Assembly: GCA_905182775.1 (NCBI GenBank)
Contig: CAJJCU010000150.1
Span: forward strand, 1-33,171
Origin: an uncultured Flavobacteriales bacterium
Lineage (GTDB): Bacteria > Bacteroidota > Bacteroidia > Flavobacteriales_D > Crocinitomicaceae
DNA length: 33,171 bases
Reading direction: 5' to 3'
Shown: positions 1,359 through 32,044 of the stretch, in pieces
Numbering within the stretch: the first letter of the stretch is position 1
Layout: each line of letters begins with the position of its first letter
The notes under the pieces: model-generated
Database searches by the model: none
The model's input: only the letters and a program-made list of their open reading frames with translations
Told to the model about the DNA's origin: nothing
Position numbers and translations under genes: made by a program

Positions 1359-1949
1359 TTAGCCATGAATACTTTGCTCTTTTCCATACTTTTTCATTAA
1401 ATCGGCTTCAAAAGACAGGAATGATAACCATCTTTTTTCAACATCAATTTTGGTGCTGTATTTTTTTGCAAATTTCAGAAACGTCATGAAGTGTCGGGCT
1501 TCACTTTCCATTAGCATTCTATAAAATTCTTTTAAATCTGGATCTTTTAAGCTTTCTGATAGTAATTTAAAACGCTCACAGCTTCTTGCTTCAATCATTG
1601 CGGCAAATAGCATTTGATTTACAAAATGACTCTCTCTAGAGTTATTTCCATACTCCGTTTTTAGGTGCTGGGATAAATCCTTGACATAAGGATCCTTTCT
1701 TTCAAACCCTAGGTTCATTCCTCTGTCAAGTATTTTTTTGTGAACCATTTCGAAATGATCCATTTCTTCTTTACAAATTTCAATCATTGCTGTTACGAGG
1801 TCCGCGCGATGGGGATATTGAACAATAATGGAAATTGCATTACTGGCTGCTTTTTGTTCGCAAAAAGCGTGGTCGATTAATATTTCTTCGATATTTCGTT
1901 CAGCTATGTCGATCCATCTCGGGTCGGTTTCCATCTTTAATCCTAGCAT
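1359..1949 (-). CDS. miaE: tRNA-(ms2io6A)-hydroxylase
   Basis: 196 residues, close to the usual MiaE length. MiaE is a ferritin-like diiron monooxygenase that hydroxylates the isopentenyl group of the modified adenosine at position 37 of tRNAs reading UNN codons. Likely iron ligands are visible in the expected helical order: E31 (AFCEQKAA), E62 and H65 (EEMDH), E120 or E125 (EARSCERF), and E150 with H153 (ESEARHF). The start at 1949 gives MLGLKMETDPRW; an internal Met at codon 6 is also possible. It is transcribed away from the E1 gene across a 112-base intergenic region. It is cytosolic, with no functional link to its neighbours apparent. Confidence 0.9.
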   Translation of the reverse strand: MLGLKMETDPRWIDIAERNIEEILIDHAFCEQKAASNAISIIVQYPHRADLVTAMIEICKEEMDHFEMVHKKILDRGMNLGFERKDPYVKDLSQHLKTEYGNNSRESHFVNQMLFAAMIEARSCERFKLLSESLKDPDLKEFYRMLMESEARHFMTFLKFAKKYSTKIDVEKRWLSFLSFEADLMKKYGKEQSIHG

Positions 1950-4149: not shown

Positions 4150-4545
4150 ATGACGATAAAGGAAACCATTGAAATGGTCGAAACATTTCATAATGCATTT
4201 GGCATTGAAAACAGACAAGAACCAACAGCAGAATTATCAGTTTCTGAACAAGAGCTTAGATATAGGCTTATGGCAGAGGAAAACGATGAGTACCGCGAAG
4301 CTGTTAAAAACGAAGACCTTATTGAGATTGCTGATGCATTAGGTGACCAGCTATACATTCTCTGCGGTACGATTCTTAAGCATGGCTTACAACATAAGAT
4401 TTCAGAGGTCTTCAAGGAGATACAAAGGTCCAATATGAGTAAGCTTGATGAGGATGGTAAGCCTATTTATAGAGCGGATGGAAAAGTGCTGAAATCTGAG
4501 CTCTATTTCAAGCCGGATATCAAATCAATTTTAGACAAGAACTAA
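4150..4545 (+). CDS. MazG-like nucleotide pyrophosphohydrolase
   Basis: 131 residues of the all-alpha NTP pyrophosphohydrolase superfamily (MazG/PRA-PH type), which cleaves nucleoside triphosphates or similar compounds to monophosphate and pyrophosphate. The metal-binding pattern is visible: EENDE (E43, E44, E47) followed by EIAD (E59, D62) and D66. The C-terminal part (SNMSKLDEDGKPIYRADGK) is typical of short phage- and bacteria-type family members that act alone. It begins 3 bases after the E1 stop, indicating cotranscription, though no metabolic link to E1 is obvious. The substrate may be a house-cleaning target such as a non-canonical nucleotide. Confidence 0.82.
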   Translation: MTIKETIEMVETFHNAFGIENRQEPTAELSVSEQELRYRLMAEENDEYREAVKNEDLIEIADALGDQLYILCGTILKHGLQHKISEVFKEIQRSNMSKLDEDGKPIYRADGKVLKSELYFKPDIKSILDKN

Positions 4546-4620: not shown

Positions 4621-5769
4621 ATGATTGACCTGTCTATATACTTCACTCCGTTAGCTCTTGATGAACGCGAATTTCAAGATGAACAGATGGGGCAAGTTTT
4701 AAACTGTAATTATGGAGATTTCCCAGAAATAGAACCGGGTTCAATTGCAATTTTCTCTGTTCCAGAATACAGAGGAGCAGTCAATGAGGTTTCTATTCAA
4801 AAGCAGTCAGAATTCAGACAGGAGTTGCGTAAGCTTTCTAGGTCTAAAAATTGGAAAAATAATATTTATGATTTAGGATCAATCTCTCCAGGGAATGAGC
4901 TAAAAGATACTTCTTTTGCGATATCAAACGTCGTAAGTGAGCTTATTAAGCATCGTGTGGTGCCTATATTAATCGGTGGTTCTCAAGACCTTATTTTAGC
5001 TGCGTATGATGCCTATGAGAAACTAGAGCAGCTCGTAAATATTTGTTCTATAGATTACAGTCTTGATTTGGGAGCACCTGATAGTCCCGTTTTCTCGGAT
5101 TCTTACCTAACTTCCATTATGCTAAAGAGGCCGTGTTATCTGTTTAATCATGCGAACATTGGGCTTCAGATACCCCATACCCAGCCTAAGGAATTGAAAT
5201 TAATCGAGAGCCTTTATTTCGATGTCTGCCGATTAGGTGAGTTTAATGCCGATTTTAAACGTGCTGAACCCCATTTAAGGAATGCAGACATTATTAATAT
5301 AGATTTCAATAGTATCAAGGCATCAGAAGTTTTTTCTCATGGCGCAAATCCAAACGGCTTTCAAGCCCAGCAAATGTGTCAAATGGCTCGGTATGCTGGC
5401 ATTTCTGATAAGGTTAATTTTTTAGGTATCTTCAATTACACTGATTACAATCAAATCTCAGATAAATTACTGGCTGAGGTTCTTTGGTATTTTATCGACG
5501 GATATCAGGCGCGTTGGGGAGATTTTCCGATGGGCAGCAAAGCAGCATATTATAAGTTCAATGTGGAGCTCGAAACAGGCAATCACTCGATAATATTTTA
5601 TAAAAGTCATAAGTCTGACAGGTGGTGGATGGAGGTTCCTTATCCTCCTAAAAATGGCTCTAGATATGAGAGACACCATCTTGTTCCATGTAATAAAGAA
5701 GATTATGATCAAGCAATGCAAAACGAAATGCCTGATTTATGGTGGAAGACCTATCAAAAGCTTACTTAG
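4621..5769 (+). CDS. arginase/formimidoylglutamase-like protein, metal site lost
   Basis: 382 residues with the ureohydrolase fold, recognisable from VVPILIGGSQDL (113-124), ICSIDYSLDLG (141-151) and DIINIDFNSIKAS (223-235). These align with the canonical manganese motifs GG(D/G)H, DAHxD and DxDxxD, but most ligands are changed: the His of the first is Gln122, the second reads DYSLD, and the third keeps D228 but has Asn and Lys at the other positions. Binuclear arginase or formimidoylglutamase chemistry is therefore unlikely. The last 70 residues (SDRWWMEVPYP, RYERHHLVPC, WWKTYQKL) are Trp- and charge-rich and not part of classical arginases. It lies directly upstream of porP-gldKLMN; I recall similar arginase-like genes near gldK in other Bacteroidota. 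The function is unknown. Confidence 0.78.
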   Translation: MIDLSIYFTPLALDEREFQDEQMGQVLNCNYGDFPEIEPGSIAIFSVPEYRGAVNEVSIQKQSEFRQELRKLSRSKNWKNNIYDLGSISPGNELKDTSFAISNVVSELIKHRVVPILIGGSQDLILAAYDAYEKLEQLVNICSIDYSLDLGAPDSPVFSDSYLTSIMLKRPCYLFNHANIGLQIPHTQPKELKLIESLYFDVCRLGEFNADFKRAEPHLRNADIINIDFNSIKASEVFSHGANPNGFQAQQMCQMARYAGISDKVNFLGIFNYTDYNQISDKLLAEVLWYFIDGYQARWGDFPMGSKAAYYKFNVELETGNHSIIFYKSHKSDRWWMEVPYPPKNGSRYERHHLVPCNKEDYDQAMQNEMPDLWWKTYQKLT

Positions 5770-5887: not shown

Positions 5888-6841
5888 ATGCAACTCAAAA
5901 AATGCTCACTAGGCCTACTCCTATTTATGGTCTCCTTTACGGCCATTGCTCAGCAAGATAAACTGGTTACACATTTTATTTATGATAAAATGAGTATCAA
6001 TCCAGGGAAAACTGGTTTAGGGTTATTCAACTCTGTTTGTGTTACGTCTATTTATAGAAACCAATGGGATAGAGTTAATGGAGCTCCTAACTCTGCAGTT
6101 TTGAACTTAGAAGCTGATTTAAGTCGTTTCTTCCCTGGAGGTATCGGACTTTCTTTTTACCATGATGCGATAGGATTTGCAATTCAAAATAATCTAGCTC
6201 TTAATTATTCTTACCCAATAACAATAGGGAATGTTGGGACTTTAGGCTTAGGTGTTGGTTTAGGTTTGATTAATTACGGTATGAATCCAGTATGGGTTCC
6301 GCCAACAACAAACACTGACCCAGATTTACCTATAGGCTTTGCAGCAACTAATCTAGACGTCAATTTTGGTGCATATTTTAATGGTAAAGATTTTTATGTT
6401 GGTATTTCTTCTACGCATTTAACGGAGTCCTTGTTGAAGTCTCAGGATGTCGCTGGTTTTGAACAATCGTACCAGACAGCAAGACATTATTATTTAATGG
6501 GAGGTAAGAAATTCGCTAATATGTTTGGTGGTACAATTGATGCTCAGGTTTTGATGCGTACTGATTTAATTAAATTCTCTGCCGATTTCAATACAAGATA
6601 CATATATGATTTTGGTAATTCCAAGCAAGGATATGCAGGACTTACTATTAGAACATCAGATGCCGTAGCTTTGATGCTTGGGTATACGCCTTTAGAAAAC
6701 TTAACCGTTGGTTACTCTTATGATTTAACTGTTAATAGACTATCAAGTATTTCAAGAGGTTCTCACGAGATCTTCTTTAAATATTGTTATGATTTACCTG
6801 AACCACCTAAGCAAAGTGCAAGGCACCCGCTGTGGCTTTAG
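5888..6841 (+). CDS. PorP/SprF family type IX secretion membrane protein
   Basis: 317 residues with a signal peptide (MQLKKCSLGLLLFMVSFTAIAQ) and alternating beta-strand patterns, consistent with an outer-membrane barrel. The N-terminal FIYDKMSINPGKTG segment and YRNQWDRVNGAPNSAVLN are family hallmarks (QY-x-NP-A and R-x-QW). Members of this family (PorP in Porphyromonas gingivalis, SprF in Flavobacterium johnsoniae) are needed for secretion or surface anchoring of particular T9SS substrates, notably type B cargo. It is the first gene of the porP-gldK-gldL-gldM-gldN block and is 94 bases from gldK. The arrangement with PorP directly before gldK is common. I leave the symbol empty because several paralogues usually exist per genome. 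Confidence 0.9.
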   Translation: MQLKKCSLGLLLFMVSFTAIAQQDKLVTHFIYDKMSINPGKTGLGLFNSVCVTSIYRNQWDRVNGAPNSAVLNLEADLSRFFPGGIGLSFYHDAIGFAIQNNLALNYSYPITIGNVGTLGLGVGLGLINYGMNPVWVPPTTNTDPDLPIGFAATNLDVNFGAYFNGKDFYVGISSTHLTESLLKSQDVAGFEQSYQTARHYYLMGGKKFANMFGGTIDAQVLMRTDLIKFSADFNTRYIYDFGNSKQGYAGLTIRTSDAVALMLGYTPLENLTVGYSYDLTVNRLSSISRGSHEIFFKYCYDLPEPPKQSARHPLWL

Positions 6842-6935: not shown

Positions 6936-9026
6936 ATGAAGAAGTTATTTTGTTTGATTGCTTTACTGTCGTTCTTCTCCTCATGTAATGAGGTAGAGGG
7001 TAATTTGGTGGGAGTAAAAGGAAGAGACGTTTTTTACCCAGATGTTCTTGGACCAGGTAAATTACCGATAGGAATGAATTACGTTCCTTCTGGGGCTTAT
7101 CAGTCTGGAGAGGATGACGAAGATATTATGGGCTTACATACCGCTCGTAAGAAAACCGTTTCTACTCAAGCCTTCTATATGGATGCTACAGAGATTTCAA
7201 ACAACGAGTACAGACAGTTCGTTGATTGGGTTCGGGATTCTATCGCTAGAGAAAAGCTTTACAGAAGAAGTTATGCTGAAGATGCAGAGCAATGGGTTCA
7301 AATACCAGATGATTTTTGGTTAATGATGGGGCCTTACGGCGAAATTTATGATGCAGGTTCTGATGTTCAGGGTGGAAATACCCCTTTTGAATTGTTCATG
7401 GATTCAGCAAATAATTCCAAAGTAGATCAATCCATGCTTTTAATAGGGTCTCCATACATGAAAGGAGCTGAAGGTGATGGTCCAAATAAAAAATTATTTG
7501 GAAAAAACGTAACGCTTGTCAATGGCCTTGAAATTAGACCAAAAGATCTTAAAGGGGTTTTAGGTATAAAGAATTGGGCAAATGAAGAAGCATTCGTTTT
7601 CGAGAACTATACCAAGAACAGTACGTTTAAAGGTGATAAGACTCAGAAAAAAGGATATACAACCCAGCTTACCAAAAAAGCAAAGAAGTATCAATTAGGT
7701 CGACTTGAAGCGAGGAAATATCTTACTCTCGACTGGGAAATGCCTTTAGATTATAAAGATCCAGAGACAAATTTCTTATTGTCCGATATGTTTTATAGTG
7801 AGCAAGAGCGTTTTTATAAAAAAAGAACGATAGATACGCGTCTTTTATATTTTGATTACTATTGGATAGATTATAAAGAGGCTGCTAGAAGAGGTAAGGT
7901 TATAACAACCGCTGTTGATTCTAGAAAAACGTTTTCTTATGATAGCTTAGGTAATGATACCTATCGTTCAGATGATTTGTACAAACGAAATAGACGTGAC
8001 CCATTATCGAAAGATTATAAAAGAGATGATTTGCATAGATCTACGCTTTATACAATGGATCAGAATAACAATAAAGTTTGGGTAGATACGACAGTATTTA
8101 CTTCTCAAGCAACTGATGCATCTGGACAGGTTCTATCTAATAAATCCATTACAGACGCAGACAATTTGTATGGTACTATCTTGGAAAATCCAGGTCAGGA
8201 TTTGGACATGGGTTATTCCAATAGTAAAGGTCAGCACAATGCTATTCGTGGTCATACGGATCGAAGTCGTTTCATTATTAAAGAACGAATCAATGTTTAT
8301 CCAGATACTTTATGCTGGGTTCGTGATTTTACTTATGCATTTCATTCTCCAATGACTAAAAATTATTTTTGGCATAATGCTTATGATAATTACCCTGTTG
8401 TAGGGGTTACTTGGACTCAAGCAAAAGCTTTTTCAGTTTGGAGAACACAAATTTACCATAGCTGGTTAGAGGCAAATGGTGATCTATTTGTAAATGATTT
8501 CCGTTTACCTCTTGAATCAGAATGGGAAAGAGCTGCGCGTGGAGATCTAGAACAATCACAATTCCCATGGGGAGGGCCTTACATTCGTAATGCTAGTGGT
8601 TGTTTCTTAGCCAACTTTAAACCAATGCGAGGACGTTATTTTGAAGATGGTGGTTTTCATACTGTAAAGGTCTATTCATACAACCCAAATGGTTTCGGAT
8701 TGTACTGTATGGCAGGAAACGTTGCTGAGTGGTGTTCAACTGCTTTTGATGAATCCCAATACGAATTTGGTCATGATATGAATTCAGACTATGAGTATGA
8801 GGCAAAAGATGGTGATCATCCAGCTAAAAAACGTAAAGTGATCCGTGGTGGTTCATGGAAAGATATTGGCTATTACCTCAATAATTCTACAAGAACTTTT
8901 GAATATCAAGATACCGCTAAATCTTACATTGGCTTTAGAAATGTGCTGACTCACATGGGCCGTGGTGGTAAAGATTTAGATCTCGAAAATGGTGAAGAAA
9001 TTCAAAGTGATATACAACTTAAATAA
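6936..9026 (+). CDS. gldK: gliding motility/T9SS lipoprotein GldK
   Basis: 696 residues with a lipoprotein signal peptide ending in FFSSC (Cys17). GldK (PorK) is an outer-membrane lipoprotein that forms the periplasmic ring of the type IX secretion system with GldN. The fold is that of formylglycine-generating enzymes, seen in FYMDATEISNNEYRQFV (80-96), VVGVTWTQAKAFSVWRT, FRLPLESEWERAARG (522 onward), GLYCMAGNVAEWC and VIRGGSW (about 635). The paired catalytic Cys of true sulfatase activators are absent after RGGSW, as expected for GldK. It is about 200 residues longer than the 460-490 I recall for F. johnsoniae and P. gingivalis. The extra length sits between residues about 130 and 450, rich in Lys, Asp and Tyr. 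gldL follows after 33 bases. Confidence 0.95.
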   Translation: MKKLFCLIALLSFFSSCNEVEGNLVGVKGRDVFYPDVLGPGKLPIGMNYVPSGAYQSGEDDEDIMGLHTARKKTVSTQAFYMDATEISNNEYRQFVDWVRDSIAREKLYRRSYAEDAEQWVQIPDDFWLMMGPYGEIYDAGSDVQGGNTPFELFMDSANNSKVDQSMLLIGSPYMKGAEGDGPNKKLFGKNVTLVNGLEIRPKDLKGVLGIKNWANEEAFVFENYTKNSTFKGDKTQKKGYTTQLTKKAKKYQLGRLEARKYLTLDWEMPLDYKDPETNFLLSDMFYSEQERFYKKRTIDTRLLYFDYYWIDYKEAARRGKVITTAVDSRKTFSYDSLGNDTYRSDDLYKRNRRDPLSKDYKRDDLHRSTLYTMDQNNNKVWVDTTVFTSQATDASGQVLSNKSITDADNLYGTILENPGQDLDMGYSNSKGQHNAIRGHTDRSRFIIKERINVYPDTLCWVRDFTYAFHSPMTKNYFWHNAYDNYPVVGVTWTQAKAFSVWRTQIYHSWLEANGDLFVNDFRLPLESEWERAARGDLEQSQFPWGGPYIRNASGCFLANFKPMRGRYFEDGGFHTVKVYSYNPNGFGLYCMAGNVAEWCSTAFDESQYEFGHDMNSDYEYEAKDGDHPAKKRKVIRGGSWKDIGYYLNNSTRTFEYQDTAKSYIGFRNVLTHMGRGGKDLDLENGEEIQSDIQLK

Positions 9027-9059: not shown

Positions 9060-9896
9060 ATGAGTGGAAACGGAACTAGCTTTTTTGAAAGCAAGACTTG
9101 GAAGAATATAATGAAATATGTTTACGGCCTTGGAGCAGCGGTTGTAATTATGGGGGCATTGTTTAAAATTATGCACTGGCCTGGAGCATCAGAGATGTTG
9201 ATCGTAGGTCTTAGTACGGAAGCTCTTATATTTATTATGTCCGTAATGGAACCTGTTCATTTGGATTCTGATTGGTCTCGTGTTTTTCCAGAATTGGCGA
9301 ATACCGAAGGTGAAGGTATCGAAGAATTAGAGGGGGTTGGTCTATATGATCTAATTAAGTCTGGTTCTGATGAGCCTGGCTCTCAGGCAGACAGTCTTGC
9401 TAATAAATTGGGTGATGCGGGTATTGATAATGCCTTAATAGGAAGGTTAAAAGACGGTATGTCTAATTTAGCGGATAATGCAACTTCTTTGGGTTCTATG
9501 TCTTCAGCAACTGGAGCAACAGATCAATATGTAAGCAGTTTAGAAAGCGCTTCAAAGAGTTTAGATAACTTGGCAGATCAATATAAAGAATCAGCAACTT
9601 CTATAGCCGCTATTTCAGGTGAAGGAAATAACTTTGGTCCTGAAATGGAACGTTTAAGTTCAAACATCGCAGCCTTAAATAACACTTACGAGCTTCAATT
9701 AAAGAGTTCACAAGATTATATTGAGAGTGCAGGTCAATTGCAAGGACTGCAAGAAAGTATCAAGTCTGTAATGTCAGATTTAGCTGCTTCTGCTGGAGAT
9801 ACTCAGATTTATAGAGAGAACATGGCGACATTGTCTCAAAATTTAGGAGATCTGAACAATGTATATGGCAACATGCTTAAGGCAATGAAGTCGTAA
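9060..9896 (+). CDS. gldL: gliding motility/T9SS inner-membrane motor protein GldL
   Basis: 278 residues. Two transmembrane helices lie near the N terminus (about 18-36 and 44-64), joined by KIMHWPG. The second carries Glu54 (LSTEALIFIM), matching the membrane-embedded glutamate that is essential for proton-driven motor function in characterised GldL. GldL forms a pentamer around two GldM chains and powers type IX secretion and gliding. The cytoplasmic tail from residue 70 is long, polar and low in complexity, with many Ser, Leu and Asn in helical coiled-coil-like spacing. It is somewhat longer than the F. johnsoniae protein (about 215 by memory). It lies between gldK and gldM in one transcription unit. 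Confidence 0.95.
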   Translation: MSGNGTSFFESKTWKNIMKYVYGLGAAVVIMGALFKIMHWPGASEMLIVGLSTEALIFIMSVMEPVHLDSDWSRVFPELANTEGEGIEELEGVGLYDLIKSGSDEPGSQADSLANKLGDAGIDNALIGRLKDGMSNLADNATSLGSMSSATGATDQYVSSLESASKSLDNLADQYKESATSIAAISGEGNNFGPEMERLSSNIAALNNTYELQLKSSQDYIESAGQLQGLQESIKSVMSDLAASAGDTQIYRENMATLSQNLGDLNNVYGNMLKAMKS

Positions 9897-9929: not shown

Positions 9930-11735
9930 ATGGCAGGAGGCAAGGAATCCCCAAGACAAAAAATGATCGGTATGATGTATTTGGTACTCACGGCCTTATT
10001 GGCTTTGAATGTATCTAAATCTATACTTGATGCGTTTATTAATATTGAAGCAAATATTCAAACTGGAAATAATACCGAAGTACAACGTGGTGATGAAAAG
10101 AAGTCTGACGTTGCAGGTAAACAAACCAATGATGAAGGCAATCCAAATAAAATAGCTGTAGAAATCTTCAAGGTCATGGAGGAAATTGATGCCGAAACAG
10201 CTAAAAAAATTGTTTTAATCGATAAGATTAAGCTCATGATTTTTCAAAAATGTGGTGAGGATTTAAGTCCGGGTGCAGAAAAACCAATTTGTTTAAAAGA
10301 CAGAGCGCAATGGACATTGGATTTTGCAAATGTTACAAAGCCTGGATTAACAAAGAATAGTGAGCCAATCAGGCCTATCAAAATGAATCTAAATCACGTA
10401 GCCAAAAAAGATGCATACGATGAACAAATGTTCATTATGGGTATCAATGAGAATATTTTGGATGTGAATAAAAAAGCCCCGGGCTTTGCGGTTTGGCCTG
10501 CAATGTTCGAGTACAGAAAGATATTATGCGATTTAATCGTTAAGGCTTCTGTAGCCATTGATGATGATGGTAATAAATATGCTTTTAAAGACCCTAATAT
10601 TAAAAAGTTTAAGGACCTTAAAGATTTAGGTGTTCAAATGGAAAAGGCTTTGGATGCTTCAAATGTCAATCGTGATGATAGAGGTATTATTTCTAATATT
10701 TATAGGAGTCTTACAAAAAATGAGTTACAGCCAGATCCGCACAGCGAAGGGGAATTTCGCCATTGGGTTGGTGGTACCTTTGACCATGCGCCATCTGTGG
10801 CAGCTATTGCGGCCTTATCAAGTTTGCAAAGTGAAATATTAACAGCCCGAGCAAATGCAATGGCTTATTTGTCTTCGAAAGTTGGAGGTGGTAATTATGC
10901 ATTTAATAAAGTGATGCCGTTGGCGATTGCTTCTCCATCTGTTTCCGGTGGAGCTTCAGATACATTAAAAGTAATGATGGCTGCGTATGATTCCGAAAAA
11001 CAACCTGAGGTGAAAATAGACGCAGGTAAAGGAACACTAGTAGATACTCGAGATGGTCAAGCTTTTATTGCATACACGGCGCCTAGTGGCGGTGAAATGG
11101 AATTAACTGGGGAAATTGGGATTAAAGACAAATTCGGTGGTGTAAAATGGGCCAAGTATGCGACAACTGTAAAAGTTGTAGAGAAAGGTGGTTCAATAGC
11201 CTTACCAGAAGTATCTGTTTTTTATACTGATTGGCCTAATAAGGTTGTTTATTCAGCAGCCGGTGTTGTATCAACATCAGTTACTTGTACAGGATGTTCT
11301 AAGTCACAGAAAAATAAATCGTGGAAAGATACGGATGGTACTTCTTACAAAGGCGATTGGCTATATGTTAATAGGGGTGTTAGAACAGTTACTGTTTCTC
11401 TTCAGGGGAAAGATAACAATGGAAATACCGTGACCTTTGGTAAAAATATATTTCCCGTTAAAAAGTTTCCAAAACCAGAAGTTAAAACGAAGTCGATCTC
11501 AAAATCGCGTGGTGGTTTCTTGGATGTTGGATTGGGTGATGCCTTTAACTTTAAGGGGATCAAATATAAAGTAACTGGTGGAGAGATTCTTGGAAAAGGA
11601 TTTTCTGGAGATCGTTTGAAGCCAGGTAATTTAGCGAAGGCACGTCCAGGTCAAAAGCTAGGTATCGTATTGTTTACAAAAAGAACAGATACCGGTAAAA
11701 AAGACATTATAGAGGGCGTGATTCAAATTAAATAA
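9930..11735 (+). CDS. gldM: gliding motility/T9SS inner-membrane protein GldM
   Basis: 601 residues. A single N-terminal transmembrane helix (about 11-30, MIGMMYLVLTALLALNVSK) is followed by a helical domain and then beta domains in the periplasm. GldM pairs with GldL to form the rotary motor and spans the periplasm to reach the GldK-GldN ring. The final domain (GGFLDVGLGDAF, FSGDRLKPGNLAKARPGQ) matches the conserved C-terminal part that contacts the ring. A CxxC pair (TCTGCSKS) is present in one beta domain; whether it forms a disulfide is unknown. The length exceeds the roughly 515 residues I recall for reference proteins. gldN starts 7 bases after the stop. Confidence 0.95.
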   Translation: MAGGKESPRQKMIGMMYLVLTALLALNVSKSILDAFINIEANIQTGNNTEVQRGDEKKSDVAGKQTNDEGNPNKIAVEIFKVMEEIDAETAKKIVLIDKIKLMIFQKCGEDLSPGAEKPICLKDRAQWTLDFANVTKPGLTKNSEPIRPIKMNLNHVAKKDAYDEQMFIMGINENILDVNKKAPGFAVWPAMFEYRKILCDLIVKASVAIDDDGNKYAFKDPNIKKFKDLKDLGVQMEKALDASNVNRDDRGIISNIYRSLTKNELQPDPHSEGEFRHWVGGTFDHAPSVAAIAALSSLQSEILTARANAMAYLSSKVGGGNYAFNKVMPLAIASPSVSGGASDTLKVMMAAYDSEKQPEVKIDAGKGTLVDTRDGQAFIAYTAPSGGEMELTGEIGIKDKFGGVKWAKYATTVKVVEKGGSIALPEVSVFYTDWPNKVVYSAAGVVSTSVTCTGCSKSQKNKSWKDTDGTSYKGDWLYVNRGVRTVTVSLQGKDNNGNTVTFGKNIFPVKKFPKPEVKTKSISKSRGGFLDVGLGDAFNFKGIKYKVTGGEILGKGFSGDRLKPGNLAKARPGQKLGIVLFTKRTDTGKKDIIEGVIQIK

Positions 11736-11742
11736 GGAAATT

Positions 11743-13035
11743 ATGAAAAGTACTTCATTTACAATCGTGTTGAGTTTTATTCTTGGAGCATCGGTTTTTG
11801 CACAAGATGTTCCCCCTAGAGGGCCATATAATACTTTAGGTGGAGGTATTGTTGATGGAGTCGTGGTAAAAGATGAAGTGCCGATTCGAAGCGCTGTTCC
11901 GTATGAGCATGTTCGTTATGCCGATTTTGTTTGGTCAAAGAGGGTCTTTTCTAGAATTGATGCAAGAGAGAAATTAAATCATGAGATATTTTTCCCTTTT
12001 GATGAATTTGATTCACAATTTAAGCCGCCGAAATCAGAATCCGATGTTGATGGGCCATTATGGATTAAGCATCAAGAGCGATGGTCATTATGGACCGTTA
12101 TTCTTAGACATATCATGTTAGGAGATCTTCCTGTATATCAAGTGGCGAATCCAATTTACAACGTTAAACAGGTTATCGAAGATGGGTATCAGTTTAAATA
12201 CCCAATAGAAAGGGTGTCTGGAAGTGAAGATTATTTTTTAAATGAAGAGTATCAAAGTGAAATCAACAATGTAATTGCAGCTTTGGGTCAAGGACCTGTT
12301 GTTAAAATTGACATTGATGGAACGGAAGAAGCACTTCAAAATGACCCTTCTGTAACTCAATCTGCTCAGGGACAGACTTTTGAGGTTTGGTTCGATAGTA
12401 TTGTGAATTTAAGTTTCGATCCTACGCGTTCTGATTTATTAAATTTCGACAAAGCAGATTTAGAGCTCCGATGGACTAAATCGATTGAGAATAATGGTTC
12501 AGGTCTACTTCGTGAAGATGGACCGATTTCTTTTCAGTCTTCGGAAGGAATAACCGCATACAATATTAAGGAAGATTGGTTTTTTGACAAAGAGCGCTCC
12601 GTTTTGGATAAAAGAATAATAGCTATAGCTCCTGTTTGTAAATTTACGAAGGTTGCAGAAAAGGAACATAAGGAAATGCGGGGTACAATGGTTGTATTTC
12701 GAGATGGTGTAGAATCTTATTTTAGCATGGAGCAAAGTGAGTTTCAGCCTCTTGAAAATGAGCCAACCATACAACTTGAAATGTTTTGGATGTATTTTCC
12801 AGATTTAAGAAATGTAATGGTTAACTATTATACTTATAATGATAAGTCAGATGCGCAGTGGATGAGCTTTGATGATTTATTTTGGAAAAGGAAATATACT
12901 GCTCAAGTATATCGAACTTCAGATAAATTCGATAGAGAAATTGAGGATTATAGATTTGGCGTTGATGCCCTCTATGAAGCGGAAAAGGTAAAGAACAATA
13001 TTCGCAAGTGGGAGCATGATGTTTGGAACTATTAG
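11743..13035 (+). CDS. gldN: gliding motility/T9SS periplasmic protein GldN
   Basis: 430 residues with a signal peptide (MKSTSFTIVLSFILGASVFA). GldN (PorN) is a periplasmic partner of GldK in the T9SS ring. Family features include the N-terminal VPIRSAVPYEHVRYADFVWSKRV block (GldN proteins typically carry a DxxWSKxVWR-like segment), LWTVILRH, and the later block KEDWFFDKERSVLDKRIIAIAPV, followed by LEMFWMYFPDLRNVM. Its last residues (IRKWEHDVWNY) resemble other GldN ends. It is the last gene of the secretion operon and is followed within 20 bases by a strong terminator. Confidence 0.94.
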   Translation: MKSTSFTIVLSFILGASVFAQDVPPRGPYNTLGGGIVDGVVVKDEVPIRSAVPYEHVRYADFVWSKRVFSRIDAREKLNHEIFFPFDEFDSQFKPPKSESDVDGPLWIKHQERWSLWTVILRHIMLGDLPVYQVANPIYNVKQVIEDGYQFKYPIERVSGSEDYFLNEEYQSEINNVIAALGQGPVVKIDIDGTEEALQNDPSVTQSAQGQTFEVWFDSIVNLSFDPTRSDLLNFDKADLELRWTKSIENNGSGLLREDGPISFQSSEGITAYNIKEDWFFDKERSVLDKRIIAIAPVCKFTKVAEKEHKEMRGTMVVFRDGVESYFSMEQSEFQPLENEPTIQLEMFWMYFPDLRNVMVNYYTYNDKSDAQWMSFDDLFWKRKYTAQVYRTSDKFDREIEDYRFGVDALYEAEKVKNNIRKWEHDVWNY

Positions 13036-20466: not shown

Positions 20467-22077
20467 ATGAAAAAAATACTTCTACCTTTTTTAAGCTGTA
20501 TAGCTATTCTTGGAAGCTCATTTGCCCAAGTACGATATGTTGATGAAGTCTTTACAGACTTTACTGTAGATAATAATATCGAATACGGCATGAATTTTTC
20601 TGTTCTTGCTGCAAGTCAAGGACTTCCATATGCACCAACTGGGCAAGACCTTACAGGAGACGGGAATGCTGATATTCCGCCATTAGAATTTGATTTATAC
20701 CAGCCAGATGGTGATACCGAAACTGAAAGACCATTGGTGATTGTATTGCATACAGGAACTTTCGCACCTATTATATATAATGGAAACCCAACGGGAATGC
20801 GTCAAGATATAGCGACAACATTAATTTGTGAAAGCTATGCAAAACGTGGATACGTTGTTGCAAACTTAGAATATCGTTTGGGATGGAATCCAGGGGCTGA
20901 AACTCCTGCTGAGAGAGGAGCGAGCCTTATGAAGGCTGTTTATCGTGCGATTCAAGATACAAAAGGTGCGGTTCGTTATTTCAGAAGAGATTACGAAAAT
21001 GGCAACACATATGGTATCGATACTTCTCGAATCATCCTTTCCGGACAAGGTTCCGGTGGTTGGGTAGCTTTGGGTTACGCAACTGTTAACAAATATGAAG
21101 AGATTACACTTCCTAAGTTTTTAGATGTAGATGAGATTACAGGAGAAGTTACTGCGCTTATCGATACTTCTGAAATTGGTGACTGGGACGGATATGGTGG
21201 TGAATTTAATAATGTAAATCATCCTGGTTATTCTAATGATGTTCATATGATCTGTAGCATGGGTGGTGGTATTGGCGATTTAAGCTGGCTTGAAGCCGGT
21301 GAGACTCCTATGTGTGCCGTTCATTGTCCTACTGATCCAGTTGCAATTTATACGACTGGTGATGTTTCTGTAGCCGGAGCAGGTCTTATCACTACAGAAA
21401 TTAGTGGTTCTTATGATGTGATGACTAAAGCAAACATGTTAGGTAATAATGATGTTTTGAGCACAGTAAATGCGGGAAGTGATGCCTATACCTTGGGCGC
21501 ACAAGCAGCATCTGCATCTGCAGAGGGTATGGCAGATTTTGGTGGAACTGTTGTTGGTGCACCTGTTGATAATGTGTTCCCTTATGTAACAGCAAATCCA
21601 TTTGAAGCGTCTCCTTGGGACCTTTGGGATCCGGCATTTGTTGAGTATGTAGCGACTGCTGTATTAGGTCTTCCAGCTGGAACAGGTACTGGTGTTTCAA
21701 ATGATGCTTTGGTACAGAATCCTGATATGAGTCCATTAAAAGCGTTTGCATACATCGATACTACATTAGGTTATTTCTGTAGAAGAATTGTGAGAGCAAC
21801 GAACCTTGATGGTTTAGCTTCAATAGAAGCATCTGAGACTATGAATACTTTAGAGGTATATCCAAACCCTGCATCAAATGTATTGGTTTTTAGAGCTCAA
21901 GAAGGGAATATTGAATCTATTGAAATTCATTCTGCTCTTGGAGAGAAAGTACGTTCAGAATTGAACCTTTCATCTAATATGGTTTCTTTTTCTGATTTGA
22001 ATTTAAAGGCTGGTTTGTACTTCTGCTCTGTAGAAGTTGACGGTCATATGTTTACAAAAAAGGTAATCATTAAATAA
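20467..22077 (+). CDS. secreted alpha/beta-hydrolase-like protein with T9SS type A sorting domain
   Basis: 536 residues. A signal peptide (MKKILLPFLSCIAILGSSFAQ) is followed by an esterase-like alpha/beta-hydrolase region, with RPLVIVLHTGTF as the oxyanion-side strand and YAKRGYVVANLEYRLGW. The nucleophile elbow reads SGQGSGGW with Ser195, but Gln replaces the first Gly of the usual GxSxG, so activity needs testing. The last 80 residues (LEVYPNPASN to KKVIIK) form a type A C-terminal domain that directs export through the T9SS and attachment to the cell surface. The product should therefore be surface-bound or released. It follows a TonB receptor and ends at a strong terminator, which suggests a shared substrate for the pair. 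Confidence 0.85.
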   Translation: MKKILLPFLSCIAILGSSFAQVRYVDEVFTDFTVDNNIEYGMNFSVLAASQGLPYAPTGQDLTGDGNADIPPLEFDLYQPDGDTETERPLVIVLHTGTFAPIIYNGNPTGMRQDIATTLICESYAKRGYVVANLEYRLGWNPGAETPAERGASLMKAVYRAIQDTKGAVRYFRRDYENGNTYGIDTSRIILSGQGSGGWVALGYATVNKYEEITLPKFLDVDEITGEVTALIDTSEIGDWDGYGGEFNNVNHPGYSNDVHMICSMGGGIGDLSWLEAGETPMCAVHCPTDPVAIYTTGDVSVAGAGLITTEISGSYDVMTKANMLGNNDVLSTVNAGSDAYTLGAQAASASAEGMADFGGTVVGAPVDNVFPYVTANPFEASPWDLWDPAFVEYVATAVLGLPAGTGTGVSNDALVQNPDMSPLKAFAYIDTTLGYFCRRIVRATNLDGLASIEASETMNTLEVYPNPASNVLVFRAQEGNIESIEIHSALGEKVRSELNLSSNMVSFSDLNLKAGLYFCSVEVDGHMFTKKVIIK

Positions 22078-25175: not shown

Positions 25176-28100
25176 TTATCTTATGAGGTTAACGTGTCCA
25201 GTCATTTGATATTGTTTATTTGAGAAATCTAAATAGGTTAATTTCCAAATATAAGTTCCATCTTGACATTCTTTCCCGAAAAAGGTACCGTCCCAAGATT
25301 GATAGGGTTCCGTCATCGTGTAAACGATTTCTCCCCATCTATTAAAAATGAGGCATTCCATTTCTTTAATATTTCCTCCCGATATTTGAAAGGTTTCGTT
25401 GAGGCCATTATTGTCAGGTGTGAAGGTATTTGGAATATAAATTACGGCATCGTAATAGATATTGATGAATTCATCGGATTCACATCCATTTAGATCTATA
25501 AAGGTGACCTTGTATGTGATCTCTTGATTTGGGGTCGCAATTGGGTTGTCACAATGAATGCAGCTTAAATATTCGGCTGGAGACCAAATGAAAATACCAT
25601 CTTGATCTGAGTAGGCTTGAAGCTGAATTTCATCTCCATAAAAGGCAAGGACGTCGTTTGATGTTTCAAATGATGGGTATGGGTAGAGCGCTACATTCAC
25701 ATAAGCTGTATCCCTACATTCATTCTCATCAATTCCAATAACGGTATAGTCTGTCGTACCCAATGGAACAACAGTTGCTTGGTTTTCAAATTGATTGATA
25801 ACGGTATTCGCTGGGATCCATTGATAATAATCTGCTCCCTCAGCCCATAAATAGGCTTCTTCTCTAGGGCAGATTATTGTATCGTTTCCAGCTTGAATTT
25901 CAATTTCTATGACACTAGCGTATATTGAATCGATGATTGCACCACAAGCATTTTCGATTTCTACATAAAACCACTGATTGAATTCAGGTGCAATAACGGC
26001 GATGGAACCTTCAGTGTTTAAAATATATGGATCAGGAATCCAAGAATAGGAATCCCCACCACTGGCAATAATCGTGGTTTGTGTTCCAATACAAACCCCT
26101 ACCTCATCATCTAAGTCGGATAAAGGCAAATCGAAGAAAACATTTACAGATGTTGTATCATAGTTCACGCAGCCATTTGTTGTGGTAACTTCCGCGACAT
26201 ATGTTATTGAAGAGTCTGGAGTAGATATAGGAGTGAACGAATTGGGGTCATTTAAGTAGAGTGGGGGGCTCCATGAGATAGTTCCTTCTCCAGTAGCTTC
26301 TAAGGTTATACTTTCTCCCAAGCAGATGCTAGAAGGATCAGAAACTTCAACATCGTTATTAAACACTTCTAAGGTTACTTCTAATGTTTGGGATCCACAT
26401 GTGTCAGAGACAGATACGGTAAATGTAGTTGTTTGTTCTATGGTGGCGATTGGATTAGCAGAATTTGGATTTTCTAAAAGTCCTGCGGGTTCCCATTCAT
26501 AAAAGGCGCCGCCAAAAGCCTCGAGCTCGTAGCTTTCCCCGGGGCAAATTGGCCCTACAGGATCAACGACTCCACCTTCAAAAGCACCGATATCAACTAT
26601 AATCGTCACAGAATCAGCACTAAAGCATCCAGAAGTATCATAGACAACAAGCTGAACCTCATAGGACCCTGGTTCTGTGTATTGGTATATTGGTTCCTCT
26701 TCTGTGGAGGTTCCACCGTCTCCAAATGTCCATAGGTAGGCATTTCCATTTTCACTATCATTTGTAAAAAAAACAGATTGTGGAATGCAAATTAAAGGTG
26801 CTGGTTGCGCGGCTGCAGCCTCTATTGTGCTTAATTCAAATTTAAAGGTTGCCATATTGCAATTGCTACCCTGATTTGTTTCTGCAAAGCTTCCTGATGT
26901 GGTCGTGAAACCAGTAGCATTTCCACCACAAGCCCCGCATACGGCATGGTAAATACGCCCTGACTTATCAAACCGACTTGTACCTCCATCTACATGGTTC
27001 GAACTGCTATTCAATCCGCCCATAAATGTTGCATATTTAAGGTTTGAAGCATCTTGATCTAATACCGCAATATAAAAGTTACTCCCATTTGTCTGCGTCT
27101 GGTGGGCATCTCCGGTCACAATAAACCCATTTGTAGTTGAGCTCGGGACACTTCCATTCGTTGAGCCTCCCCATCCAGCAAGATAAATATCATAGCAATT
27201 TGAGACCAAGAAAGCTGTAGGTGATATTTCTACATTTCCTGTGCCCGCTCCGATCATTGTAGTCCATTCGATGTTATTTAGCGATGCATCATATTTTCTT
27301 ATAAACTGCCCTGAATTTGGAGAACCAAAACATATAGGGCTTATGGGCCAATCAGATGAAGTTTGGCCGTAAACATAAATATTGTGATCAATGTCGTATT
27401 GCACAAAGTAAGTCTGATCGTATTCGCCAAACCCCATATAGGTACCCGATATTATGCTTCCTGTATTCGCATTGAATTTTGCCACAAAACCATCTGATAT
27501 ACCTCCTCCAAAAGAAAGGTCATTTCCTTGGTTAAAAGGGAGGCTATTTGAGCTCGTGCCCCCTGCGATGCAAAGTTCACCAAGCTCGTCATTTACTTGA
27601 ATTGAATTCCCTGACTCAGAACCCGTACCTCCAAAGTAGGTACTCCACAAGAGCTGGTTCAGCTCAGGAGGCATTTTGAATAGAATCGCATCTTGGTTTC
27701 CACCAATATTTGCCTGTTGCGCATTGTTTACTGGGAAATCTGACGAGAGTGTGCTGCTGGCTATGTAAACATTGTTATCGCCATCTAGCATAATTTCCCC
27801 TCGGAATTGGTCTCCATAATTAAAATGAAGCGGTCCCGTGTTGAGACCATCGTTTGCCGTTCCTCCTACGTAGGTAGATGCCAACAAATCCGCACCTGAT
27901 GCACTCAGTCTAGCGATGTATATGTCAGCGCCTGTGAAGCCTAAGCTATTTTCTGTAACTGTCGGCCCGCCATTGAATATATTGTCAAAAGAAGCACCAG
28001 CCATTGGGAAATCTGATGATCCCGTTACGCCATATATAAAAAGTTCCCCATTGTCCGCGCAAACCAGACTGTGCGGGGTTTCATTTCCACTTCCACCCAA

Positions 28101-29039
28101 GTAGGTTGAATACAATAAAGCAGAACCATTGGCAGTGAATTTTGTGATCCCTATGTCTATTGGGTATGGATCTGATCCTCCTTGAAAGCTTAAATCAAAC
28201 GCTCCAGTGGTAGTAGGATACTGCGTGCCCATTGTAATTCCGCCACCAAACAGATTCCCATAAGGATCCGGAGTTGCAGTAAAACCCCAGTTGTCACTTA
28301 TGGAACCGGAGAAAGTTGAAAAAGTAAGGCTTGGGTCTATGTAAAGCTCTTTTGTATGGTCGTGACCTTCGGGTAAATTAAAGGAAATTTCGTTATTAAC
28401 TATTTGATAGGTGATTGCGATTTTGTTTTTAAGGCCATTCTCATCTATTTCCCATGCAATAGGAGCTGTTTGATAGATTTCTCCAAATCTATTTGGAATA
28501 ACTAAAGCTCCGTCTTTGATGACAACATTAGTTGCTCCTTCAAAAGTCCATTTTATTAGCGCTGCATCAGCGCCAGGTTTCACCAAGAAGTTATAACTGA
28601 GCTGTTCGTTTTGCCCCTTATAAATTAGGTCGATATCAGAATAGAAATTTTCATAGTGCACCTCACTAAAAGAGTGAATATTTTTTTTCCATTTTGAAGA
28701 GTCGTTTCCTATGATGTAATTTTTGACATCAATAGATGGATTTATATTTATTTGACGGGCATCAGAATTTGCTTGAATGAACTTTTGATGAATCACATGA
28801 AAACGTTGTTCTTCGTCTTGCTCGTTTTCGTGGGCGTGCTCGTGCCCCTCCCCATGTGACAAAAAATCGGTGAGTAAGAAGCACATACCATCTTCTTTTA
28901 AGTATAATTTTCCCAGGTTTAAGTCTACAGAGTAATGAATGCGATCATCCCATTGCCCAGAATTAGGGGTCATATAGATCTTTTGGGCGGCTACCGACGA
29001 GACGCAAAAAAGAATTGAAAATAAGGAGAATAGTCTCAT
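25176..29039 (-). CDS. large surface protein with SBBP/PKD-like repeats and T9SS type B sorting domain
   Basis: 1287 residues. Order: signal peptide (1-19, ending VAAQ), an N-terminal domain (about 20-232; the NYIIGNDSSKWKKNIHSF region is typical of proteins that precede SBBP repeats), a beta-propeller-like region of SBBP-type repeats (about 233-735, repeated STYLGG/STYFGG strands), a PKD domain (about 745-815, YLWTFGDGGTS), several Ig/PKD-like repeats with recurring W-P and ATP-T-Y patterns (about 820-1195), then the gliding-motility-associated C-terminal domain (from about 1200, YIPNTFTPDNNGLNE). The last is the type B signal for T9SS export. A His/Glu-rich linker (HGEGHEHAHE, 62-71) follows the first strands. 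Probably a cell-surface adhesin or envelope protein. The MBL-fold gene is 11 bases downstream. Confidence 0.9.
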   Translation of the reverse strand: MRLFSLFSILFCVSSVAAQKIYMTPNSGQWDDRIHYSVDLNLGKLYLKEDGMCFLLTDFLSHGEGHEHAHENEQDEEQRFHVIHQKFIQANSDARQININPSIDVKNYIIGNDSSKWKKNIHSFSEVHYENFYSDIDLIYKGQNEQLSYNFLVKPGADAALIKWTFEGATNVVIKDGALVIPNRFGEIYQTAPIAWEIDENGLKNKIAITYQIVNNEISFNLPEGHDHTKELYIDPSLTFSTFSGSISDNWGFTATPDPYGNLFGGGITMGTQYPTTTGAFDLSFQGGSDPYPIDIGITKFTANGSALLYSTYLGGSGNETPHSLVCADNGELFIYGVTGSSDFPMAGASFDNIFNGGPTVTENSLGFTGADIYIARLSASGADLLASTYVGGTANDGLNTGPLHFNYGDQFRGEIMLDGDNNVYIASSTLSSDFPVNNAQQANIGGNQDAILFKMPPELNQLLWSTYFGGTGSESGNSIQVNDELGELCIAGGTSSNSLPFNQGNDLSFGGGISDGFVAKFNANTGSIISGTYMGFGEYDQTYFVQYDIDHNIYVYGQTSSDWPISPICFGSPNSGQFIRKYDASLNNIEWTTMIGAGTGNVEISPTAFLVSNCYDIYLAGWGGSTNGSVPSSTTNGFIVTGDAHQTQTNGSNFYIAVLDQDASNLKYATFMGGLNSSSNHVDGGTSRFDKSGRIYHAVCGACGGNATGFTTTSGSFAETNQGSNCNMATFKFELSTIEAAAAQPAPLICIPQSVFFTNDSENGNAYLWTFGDGGTSTEEEPIYQYTEPGSYEVQLVVYDTSGCFSADSVTIIVDIGAFEGGVVDPVGPICPGESYELEAFGGAFYEWEPAGLLENPNSANPIATIEQTTTFTVSVSDTCGSQTLEVTLEVFNNDVEVSDPSSICLGESITLEATGEGTISWSPPLYLNDPNSFTPISTPDSSITYVAEVTTTNGCVNYDTTSVNVFFDLPLSDLDDEVGVCIGTQTTIIASGGDSYSWIPDPYILNTEGSIAVIAPEFNQWFYVEIENACGAIIDSIYASVIEIEIQAGNDTIICPREEAYLWAEGADYYQWIPANTVINQFENQATVVPLGTTDYTVIGIDENECRDTAYVNVALYPYPSFETSNDVLAFYGDEIQLQAYSDQDGIFIWSPAEYLSCIHCDNPIATPNQEITYKVTFIDLNGCESDEFINIYYDAVIYIPNTFTPDNNGLNETFQISGGNIKEMECLIFNRWGEIVYTMTEPYQSWDGTFFGKECQDGTYIWKLTYLDFSNKQYQMTGHVNLIR

Positions 29040-29088
29040 TTAGTCCAAGTTACAACGAAATTTCAGCTTTCTTGTTATATAGACACTT

Positions 29089-29112
29089 CTCAGGTAACAT
29101 AAGTTGCCTGAG
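29089..29112. repeat. inverted repeat between divergent T9SS cargo genes
   Basis: CTCAGGTAAC, ATAA loop, GTTGCCTGAG: a 10-base stem with one T-G wobble and no T tract. It lies between the start of the minus-strand surface protein (29039) and the plus-strand carboxypeptidase (29207), upstream of the latter's candidate promoter. Could be an operator or a structured leader. Confidence 0.6.
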
Positions 29113-29136
29113 ATTAACCTCAAAATTGCCTCTGGC

Positions 29137-29167
29137 TTGTATGTTAATAGCCTTTTTCGTTTCTTTG
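29137..29167 (+). promoter_or_regulatory. possible promoter of the secreted carboxypeptidase
   Basis: TTG (29137-29139), 20-base spacer, TTTCTTTG (29160-29167), which matches TAnnTTTG at all fixed positions but the A. It predicts a leader of about 35 bases containing a tandem copy of CTATACCAAAA. Confidence 0.35.
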
Positions 29168-29206
29168 TGTACTTCACTATACCAAAACTATACCAAAACT
29201 AAACAA

Positions 29207-32044
29207 ATGAAAATCACCCTTACTTTACTTTTAATATTAGCCATAACACCTTTTGTTTCTGCTCAGAAATACTCGCGTGTCAAGGTGATTGCTAACAACC
29301 AAGAGCTTCATCAAATTTCTAATTTAGGTGTTGCTGTTGATCATGGAATACGCAAAAGCAACACCTTTATAATCACTGATTTATCGGACTTAGAATTGGA
29401 TATTCTTAATCAATATGGTTATTCCTACGAGGTTCAGATTGATGATGTCAAGGCGTTTTATAAAGACCGCTTGAGTAAGCCATCTGAGCACCCTTATACT
29501 AAAAATGAAGATTGCTCTGGAGGTTCTGGAAATACGGGTTCTTTTGAGCCTTCAATACCTTCTAATTTCAATCTTGGCTCTATGGGGGGCTACCTGACCT
29601 ACGATGAAATGCTTGAAGAACTTGATGCGATGCATTTACAATACCCAAATTTAATTAGCGAAAGAAGTCCGATTTCTAACTTTGAAACCTATGAAAATAG
29701 ACCTATTTATCATGCCCGGATTTCTGATAATCCAACTGTGAATGAGTCTGGAGAGCCCAATGTCCTTTATACGGCAATTCATCATGCAAGAGAGCCTATG
29801 AGTTTAATGGAAACGGTCTTTTACATGTGGTATTTGTTAGAAAATTATGGCAGTGATGATGAGGTTACTTACCTAGTGAATCATACTCAAATGTTTTTTG
29901 TTCCTTGTCTTAACCCTGATGGCTATATCTACAACGAAATCACGGATCCTAACGGAGGAGGGATGTGGAGAAAAAACAGAAGAGATCATCCAAATAGTAA
30001 TAATTATGGTGTTGATCTCAATAGAAATTATTCTTATGGTTGGGGAACGACAGGTATTAGTTTTAACACGAATAGCGACGTCTACTGTGGGACTGGAGCT
30101 TTTTCAGAGCCAGAAACTCAAGCGATGAAATGGCTTGCAGAAAATTATGATTTTGAAATGGCCTTTAATGCCCATAGTTATTCTCCAGCAATTCTATTTC
30201 CAATTGGGACAACAGATGAAGAGTTTGCAGACCACCACGATTACATGCAGGACTATACCAATCATATGACCGAACTAAATGGTTATCCTGCTTTTAAAAG
30301 CTCTGGGCTTTATCCTGCTTCAGGAGATTCTGATGATTACATGTACAAAGAGGGTATTGGAACGGGAGAAAAAGATACGATTTTCGCTCATACACCAGAG
30401 GTTGGAACTGCTTTTTGGCCGGGTACAAATGATATAAACCCTACTTGTCAAGAGATGGTTTTTACCAATTTAACGCTCGCCCATCTTGTGCGAAATTATG
30501 TTGTGGTGAAAGATTCAGATCCTTCAATTGTTGCTACTTTGACAGGGGACTTTAGTCATAATTCAAAGCGGTACGGAAGAGAATCAGGTCCTGTAACTGT
30601 TTCCATAGAGCCATTATTAAATATTAGCTCGGTTGGTAATCCAATCATCTATAATTTGAATGTTTCCGAAAGTCAGACAGGAACAATTTCTTATGTTTTA
30701 AATTCGAGTATTCAATTTGGAGATGAGGTAAAATACATTCTTCAAACAGACAACGGTTTGTGGATCAAAAGAGATACGATTGTTAAGACCTACGGGGCTA
30801 TAACGCTTCAGGCTCTGGAAGATGCTACAAATACTGATAACTGGTCAGGTAATTGGGCGACGACAACGGCGACCTATGTCTCTCCTTCAAAGTGCTTTAC
30901 GGATTCTCCAAATGGAAATTATTCCAATAACCAGACTAGAAACCTATATTATGACCCTTCAATTGACCTGACCAATGCGCTTTCGGCAAAAGTTACTTTT
31001 TATGCCAAGTGGGATATTGAAGCAAATTATGATTATGTTCAGTTTCAGGTTTCTACAAATGGCGGGAATTCTTGGACCGCTCAATGTGGTCTATACACTG
31101 TTGATGGAACGGATGACCAGGGTAGTGTTCAGCCTGATGGAGAACCAGTTTATGAGGGTGCGATGTCTGATTGGGTTCTTGAAGACATTAATTTGAGTGA
31201 TTATTTGGGAGAGGTTGTTGATTTTAGGTTTAGATTGAGATCTGATGGTGGCGTTACCGAGGATGGATTTTATTTTGATGATTTCAAAGTTTTCTATAAT
31301 GAGGCTCCACAAGGCACTGCTCCTGAGGCCTCTTTTACACCAACATCTTTTGAACTTTGTACGGGTACAGAGGTCTCGTTTAACGATTTTTCCTCAGAGC
31401 AGCCAACGGATTGGTCTTGGGATTTCGGCGATGGAGCATCTTCATCAGCACAGAATCCATATCATGTCTATACTACCCCAGGTGTATATGTAGTTGAGCT
31501 TTTGGTTTCAAACGAGTTTGGTTCGAACTCTACGGTTCAAACGATTCTTGTAAATGAAAATCCAGTAGTAGAAATGACAACAAGTGACGCTGATAATATT
31601 GTTTGTGTTAGTGATGGCTTCGTGCAGTTATCGGGAACCCCTTCAGGAGTTATCTTTTCAGGTAACGCTGTAGGTGTGTCTATTTTCGACCCCCAAGTTG
31701 CGGGTGCCGGCGTTCATGTAATAACTGGAACCTATACAGATGAGAATGGATGCATTGGACAGAGTACATTAGAAATTACCGTGGAACCGTGCGCTTCCGT
31801 ATCAGATTTTGCTTTTTATAATATCAAGCTATACCCGAACCCCAATGAAGGTTTGTTTTTTATTGAAGGAATGGCAAAAGGAACAAGGTTTGAAGTTTTA
31901 AACCTGCAAGGTCAATCTGTGTACTCCTCTAAAATCGAGAGTCAAACACATGCTCTAGATCTTTCTTTTACCTCTAATGGTGTTTATATTATGCAGGCCA
32001 GAATTGATGGTATGTTGTGCCGATTGAAGTTTACCAAGTATTAA
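29207..32044 (+). CDS. secreted M14 zinc carboxypeptidase with PKD and T9SS type A sorting domain
   Basis: 945 residues from ATG 29207; the track's start (29015) adds 64 residues that lack a sensible signal peptide and would overlap the divergent gene, whereas ATG 29207 opens with MKITLTLLLILAITPFVSAQ. The M14 peptidase domain covers about 120-430. Zinc ligands are H193 and E196 (HHAREP) and H323 (NAHSYS); VDLNRNYSYGW holds the substrate-binding Asn/Arg, and E398 (HTPEVGT) is the likely catalytic Glu. The middle segment (about 570-700) has the pattern of a lectin-like or MAM-type beta domain (YVQFQVSTNGGNSW). A PKD domain follows (about 710-800, WSWDFGDGAS), and the sorting domain is at the end (from about 875, IKLYPNPNEG). 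Exported by the T9SS; trims peptides outside the cell. Confidence 0.92.
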   Translation: MKITLTLLLILAITPFVSAQKYSRVKVIANNQELHQISNLGVAVDHGIRKSNTFIITDLSDLELDILNQYGYSYEVQIDDVKAFYKDRLSKPSEHPYTKNEDCSGGSGNTGSFEPSIPSNFNLGSMGGYLTYDEMLEELDAMHLQYPNLISERSPISNFETYENRPIYHARISDNPTVNESGEPNVLYTAIHHAREPMSLMETVFYMWYLLENYGSDDEVTYLVNHTQMFFVPCLNPDGYIYNEITDPNGGGMWRKNRRDHPNSNNYGVDLNRNYSYGWGTTGISFNTNSDVYCGTGAFSEPETQAMKWLAENYDFEMAFNAHSYSPAILFPIGTTDEEFADHHDYMQDYTNHMTELNGYPAFKSSGLYPASGDSDDYMYKEGIGTGEKDTIFAHTPEVGTAFWPGTNDINPTCQEMVFTNLTLAHLVRNYVVVKDSDPSIVATLTGDFSHNSKRYGRESGPVTVSIEPLLNISSVGNPIIYNLNVSESQTGTISYVLNSSIQFGDEVKYILQTDNGLWIKRDTIVKTYGAITLQALEDATNTDNWSGNWATTTATYVSPSKCFTDSPNGNYSNNQTRNLYYDPSIDLTNALSAKVTFYAKWDIEANYDYVQFQVSTNGGNSWTAQCGLYTVDGTDDQGSVQPDGEPVYEGAMSDWVLEDINLSDYLGEVVDFRFRLRSDGGVTEDGFYFDDFKVFYNEAPQGTAPEASFTPTSFELCTGTEVSFNDFSSEQPTDWSWDFGDGASSSAQNPYHVYTTPGVYVVELLVSNEFGSNSTVQTILVNENPVVEMTTSDADNIVCVSDGFVQLSGTPSGVIFSGNAVGVSIFDPQVAGAGVHVITGTYTDENGCIGQSTLEITVEPCASVSDFAFYNIKLYPNPNEGLFFIEGMAKGTRFEVLNLQGQSVYSSKIESQTHALDLSFTSNGVYIMQARIDGMLCRLKFTKY

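Follow-up and report, generated by a model that had tools for sequence, protein, structure and literature searches.

Which function does a protein with arginase-like sequence perform when its gene lies immediately upstream of the core genes of the T9SS? This question arises from a window of 33,171 nucleotides (the whole stretch of DNA that was analysed) from an uncultured Flavobacteriales bacterium of the Crocinitomicaceae, in which the gene is followed in order by porP, gldK, gldL, gldM and gldN (Table 1). The first-pass annotation proposed an arginase-fold protein that has lost its metal site, carries a distinctive Trp-rich tail and plays a non-catalytic role, perhaps in secretion or gliding. 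Compared with L042, its nearest relative at 90% identity, the gene (hereafter designated the pseudo-ureohydrolase gene) shows a dN/dS of approximately 0.02, and it is therefore a functional gene under constraint rather than a chance ORF or a decaying gene. Because no signal peptide or transmembrane segment is evident in the 382-aa protein (maximum Kyte-Doolittle value of 1.25 in a 19-residue window), we take it to be cytosolic. The gap to porP is approximately 125 bp, so that the two genes may or may not be co-transcribed; the flavobacterial promoter motif TAnnTTTG/TTTG was not found above chance in the window.

Table 1. Coordinates of the pseudo-ureohydrolase gene, its parts and the neighbouring T9SS genes in the window.
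Feature	Position	Strand	Remarks
Pseudo-ureohydrolase gene	4621..5769	+	382 aa, ATG start
Predicted ureohydrolase-fold domain, residues 1-299	4621..5517	+	AF2, Foldseek, profile matches
Motif 1, GGSQD	4975..4989	+	ligand His replaced by Gln122
Motif 2, DYSLD	5053..5067	+	D145 and D149 retained, His replaced by Ser147
Motif 3, D-F-N	5302..5310	+	D228 retained, second Asp replaced by Asn230
Asn272, column of substrate-binding Glu	5434..5436	+	
C-terminal tail domain, residues 300-382 (83 residues)	5518..5766	+	four strands, then two helices
W335-W336 of RWW motif	5623..5628	+	126/126 and 123/126 members
C357, invariant	5689..5691	+	126/126 members
porP/sprF family gene	5888..6841	+	PF11751 6e-46, TIGR03519 1e-49
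gldK/porK	6936..9026	+	TIGR03525 512 bits
gldL/porL, motor subunit with cytoplasmic domain	9060..9896	+	TIGR03513 201 bits
gldM/porM	9930..11735	+	TIGR03517 167 bits, just below NCBIfam cut-off 180; PF12081, PF21601
gldN/porN	11743..13035	+	TIGR03523 108 bits, PF19841

The Pfam search of the 382-aa protein gave no family match. Because a plain phmmer search of the PDB also gave no real match, a profile was needed to find relatives of known structure, and it retrieved 3m1r (E 1.4e-7), 2a0m and 1xfk. The AlphaFold2 model, which was computed from an alignment of 63 sequences, has a pLDDT of 89 and a pTM of 0.90. In Foldseek, the structures ranked highest for this model are those of metformin hydrolase and formimidoylglutamases (TMt 0.75-0.77 for 3m1r and 0.79 for 4mxr), and the matches to ureohydrolases range from E 3e-15 to 1e-13 with TMt up to 0.80. 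According to the model and these matches, the protein has the fold of the ureohydrolase (arginase) superfamily, as first proposed from the letters of the DNA.

The metal site within this fold is broken. Reference ureohydrolases hold six metal ligands in the motifs GGDH, DAHxD and SxDxD. In the window protein, D145, D149 and D228 are retained, whereas the two His ligands and one Asp are replaced by Gln122, Ser147 and Asn230, respectively. The claim that most manganese ligands are replaced was right about the loss, but "most" was slightly too strong because three of the six remain. Exactly three ligands are present in 104 of the 126 family members, none has more than four, and a member with intact ligands was not found among the 126. 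Position 122 is Gln in 105/126 members. The column of the substrate-binding Glu is occupied by Asn in 82 members, including the window protein, and by Glu in 29. As controls, we used 24 arginase-family relatives, drawn both from this genome (its own arginase among them) and from others. In these relatives, the motifs GGGH, DxHxD, SxDxD and ExN show few or no changes: 24/24 retain the motif-2 His and the Glu, and two have Asn in place of the motif-1 His. The pseudo-ureohydrolase family forms one side of a 100/100 branch with a length of 1.33. Ligand loss throughout the family supports the earlier label "non-catalytic".

The remaining Asp residues leave room for another reading, in which the protein is an active enzyme of altered chemistry that uses them to hold a single metal and hydrolyses another substrate. 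D145, D149 and D228 are retained in 121, 111 and 115 of the 126 members, respectively, which is above the expectation for pure scaffold residues. However, nearly all members have neither His ligand, most have no Glu, and in family f15 all three Asp residues are gone as well. Moreover, among the f17 members that were read, two (L190 and L192), with approximately 277 residues, lack the N-terminal half of the arginase domain but retain the tail. We therefore regard an active enzyme as improbable.

The closest sequence profile is that of formimidoylglutamase HutG (TIGR01227; PDB 3m1r and 1xfk, and 4mxr from T. cruzi), which shares the fold. Nevertheless, the protein scores only 28.3 bits against the NCBIfam equivalog cut-off of 229.15, lacks both His ligands and one Asp, and carries an 83-residue tail. 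No hut gene was found among the annotated recurrent neighbours of the pseudo-ureohydrolase gene. The identity as HutG was rejected because of the low score, the lost ligands and the missing hut context. A match to hutU was absent from at least 17 genomes that have the gene and present in 6 that lack it; because hutU is so common (208 of the 246 genomes of the class sample described below), this shows only that the two do not track each other. The neighbour of hutU in three genomes (G113, G148 and G231) is another paralogue of the arginase family, the pseudo-ureohydrolase gene being located elsewhere; the motifs of this paralogue are intact where they were read (G113 and G231).

Members of the family may nevertheless carry the formimidoylglutamase label and be taken for a leftover of the histidine degradation pathway, and such misannotation is likely. 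For the flavobacterium Mariniflexile litorale, a formiminoglutamase was reported as the only enzyme of that pathway (PMC11278836); it may be a pseudo-ureohydrolase under a wrong name. We found no paper on the pseudo-ureohydrolase gene in the open PMC literature, although it may be described elsewhere.

Arginase folds that have lost their metal centre occur elsewhere. MetCb of metformin hydrolase has the arginase fold but no longer a binuclear centre, and its role is to bind a partner protein (PMC11271267), so a dead arginase can persist in such a role. An arginase-like protein of Trypanosoma brucei (Hai 2015, cited in PMC10820115) is described as having the arginase fold, no manganese cluster and no assigned function, and to that extent it resembles the pseudo-ureohydrolase. 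It differs from our bacterial protein in being eukaryotic. We know of no tail and no secretion-system link in the trypanosome protein.

On the model of MetCb, the protein might be the pseudo-subunit in a pair like that of MetCb and MetCa, with the arginase of its own genome as the catalytic ureohydrolase. In favour of this are the high rank of metformin hydrolase among the structural matches, the proven role of MetCb as a metal-free partner (PMC11271267) and the intact arginase of the same genome. This arginase is, however, encoded on a different contig (C18). MetCb is encoded beside its active partner MetCa, whereas the pseudo-ureohydrolase gene sits with T9SS genes and its product has a unique tail. 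No catalytic ureohydrolase gene recurs as a neighbour, and the distribution of the gene follows the T9SS. Such a pairing thus appears very improbable.

The shared arginase-like domain stops where HutG stops, and the tail is added after this point. The model of residues 300-382 consists of four strands and two helices (pLDDT 83, pTM 0.70). The Trp-rich tail described earlier is real, with W335 in all 126 members and W336 in 123, and C357 is likewise present in 126/126. The tail occurs in none of the 24 arginase-family controls. In 48 of 49 class genomes, the tail profile matches a single copy, always within the pseudo-ureohydrolase gene; outside the class, it gave only one chance match, which is interrupted by stops. 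In T9SS-positive genomes without the gene, a search for a tail-only protein gave chance matches and no such protein. The two f17 members that keep the tail without the N-terminal half of the arginase domain suggest that the tail is the working part of the protein.

In four weak, partly independent searches, the tail (window 5518-5766; L247-L256) shows a likeness to Pam3_gp18 (PF22479), a phage baseplate plug domain. In the profile search of the PDB, the first half of the tail matched this domain with E 0.034, and in Pfam the match reached E 0.0085 at best, in 2/35 members. The Foldseek search of the PDB with the tail gave no significant match; its top match was a Pam3 baseplate chain, but with E 0.31. 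Comparison of the two by hhalign gave 87% over 46 columns, with a score of 36.9 versus a maximum of 21.7 in 200 column shuffles. The strand motif Y-x-V...F-Y...W-x-M is aligned over approximately 46 residues, whereas the match covers only half of the domain. Because the phage family was picked after the database search, we treat this likeness as a lead and not as membership.

The link to the T9SS was examined in two samples. The class, taken as Bacteroidia as inferred from the named relatives (Crocinitomicaceae and other Flavobacteriales), was sampled evenly with 246 genomes, and the order of genome G455 was sampled with 99 genomes, nearly one per family. In the class sample, the gene is present in 234 genomes and GldL in 238 (both in 231, the gene only in 3, GldL only in 7 and neither in 5; Fisher p 6e-6, a value that ignores shared ancestry, which inflates such co-occurrence statistics). 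One of the three genomes with the gene only, G378, has it at the end of a contig, which would exclude gldL from that contig. In the order sample, the gene is present in 70 genomes and GldL in 93 (both in 70, GldL only in 23, neither in 6 and the gene only in none; Fisher p 4e-4, again ignoring shared ancestry). Outside the class, neither a full-length member nor GldL was found, and the family profile matched only ordinary arginase-family relatives. Three of the genomes with GldL only are common to both samples. Because such T9SS-positive genomes exist, the core machine can work without the gene, and the gene is not universally required for the T9SS.

GldJ was matched in only 2/99 genomes of the order sample, versus 70/99 for the gene. 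The gene therefore follows the secretion core rather than gliding, and the latter half of the first-pass proposal is not upheld.

The gene position supports the link to secretion. Among 164 genomes with coordinates for both genes, the pseudo-ureohydrolase gene precedes gldL on the same strand by no more than 8 kb in 102, which represent 23/33 families, with a median gap of 2.6 kb. The usual order is topA - gene - (porP) - gldK - gldL - gldM - gldN, and the synteny with gldK is conserved in many families. In the order of G455, the gene was likewise upstream of gldL on the same strand within 8 kb in 36 of the 37 genomes found with both on one contig, and in the remaining genomes the two lie on separate contigs. 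In the window, a PRA-PH/MazG-like pyrophosphohydrolase gene (4150-4545) occupies the place that topA has in other families. In a mirror-tree analysis, the correlation was highest with PorP, an outer-membrane protein, and not with GldL, a comparison that is confounded by neighbouring position and rate and on which we do not rely.

The same order could also arise if the gene were an independent housekeeping gene, for stress, RNA or nucleotide metabolism, that lies beside the T9SS genes through an ancestral arrangement topA - gene - gldKLMN. The gene is near-universal in the class, often has topA as a neighbour and miaB beyond it on the upstream side, and is not adjacent to gldL in 10/33 families. 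In contrast, all six GldL-lacking genomes of the order sample, which belong to six different families, lack the gene. Furthermore, the relocated gene of family f17 lies beside, and convergent to, a different T9SS locus, porU-porP-gldJ-murF. We consider a housekeeping gene of this kind a rather unlikely explanation.

Nearly every bacterium of the class with a T9SS has the protein, and the pseudo-ureohydrolase is therefore probably an unrecognised T9SS helper and not a metabolic enzyme. The computed basis comprises a broken metal site in an arginase fold, a conserved tail, strong purifying selection and single-copy inheritance across the class, together with the occurrence of the gene essentially only where GldL occurs and recurrently beside T9SS genes. 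We favour, with a probability of roughly 0.55, a cytosolic non-catalytic accessory of the T9SS, perhaps acting where the GldLM motor faces the cytoplasm; confidence is only moderate because some T9SS-positive genomes lack the gene. In this accessory, the tail would bind proteins and the arginase domain would serve as a scaffold. The most economical partner might be the GldLM motor on its cytoplasmic side, the weakest step of the proposal, since the motor has its cytoplasmic domain in GldL (PMC10202324) and the pseudo-ureohydrolase shows no export signal. For this GldL domain, residues 59-189 were taken in PMC8986121. Little is known about the cytoplasmic control of the T9SS/gliding motor, and knockout would be a direct approach to an unnamed protein that is conserved across the class and linked to the motor operon.

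Two further features of the window concern the surroundings of this locus. A divergent MiaE tRNA hydroxylase gene (1359-1949, reverse strand; 105 bits against a cut-off of 320) lies near the T9SS locus, and other families have miaB in this neighbourhood. Downstream, three genes (20467-22077, 25176-29039 and 29015-32044) encode proteins with T9SS sorting domains (Por_Secre_tail or CHU_C), among them an M14 peptidase and a 1287-aa DUF7948/PKD protein.
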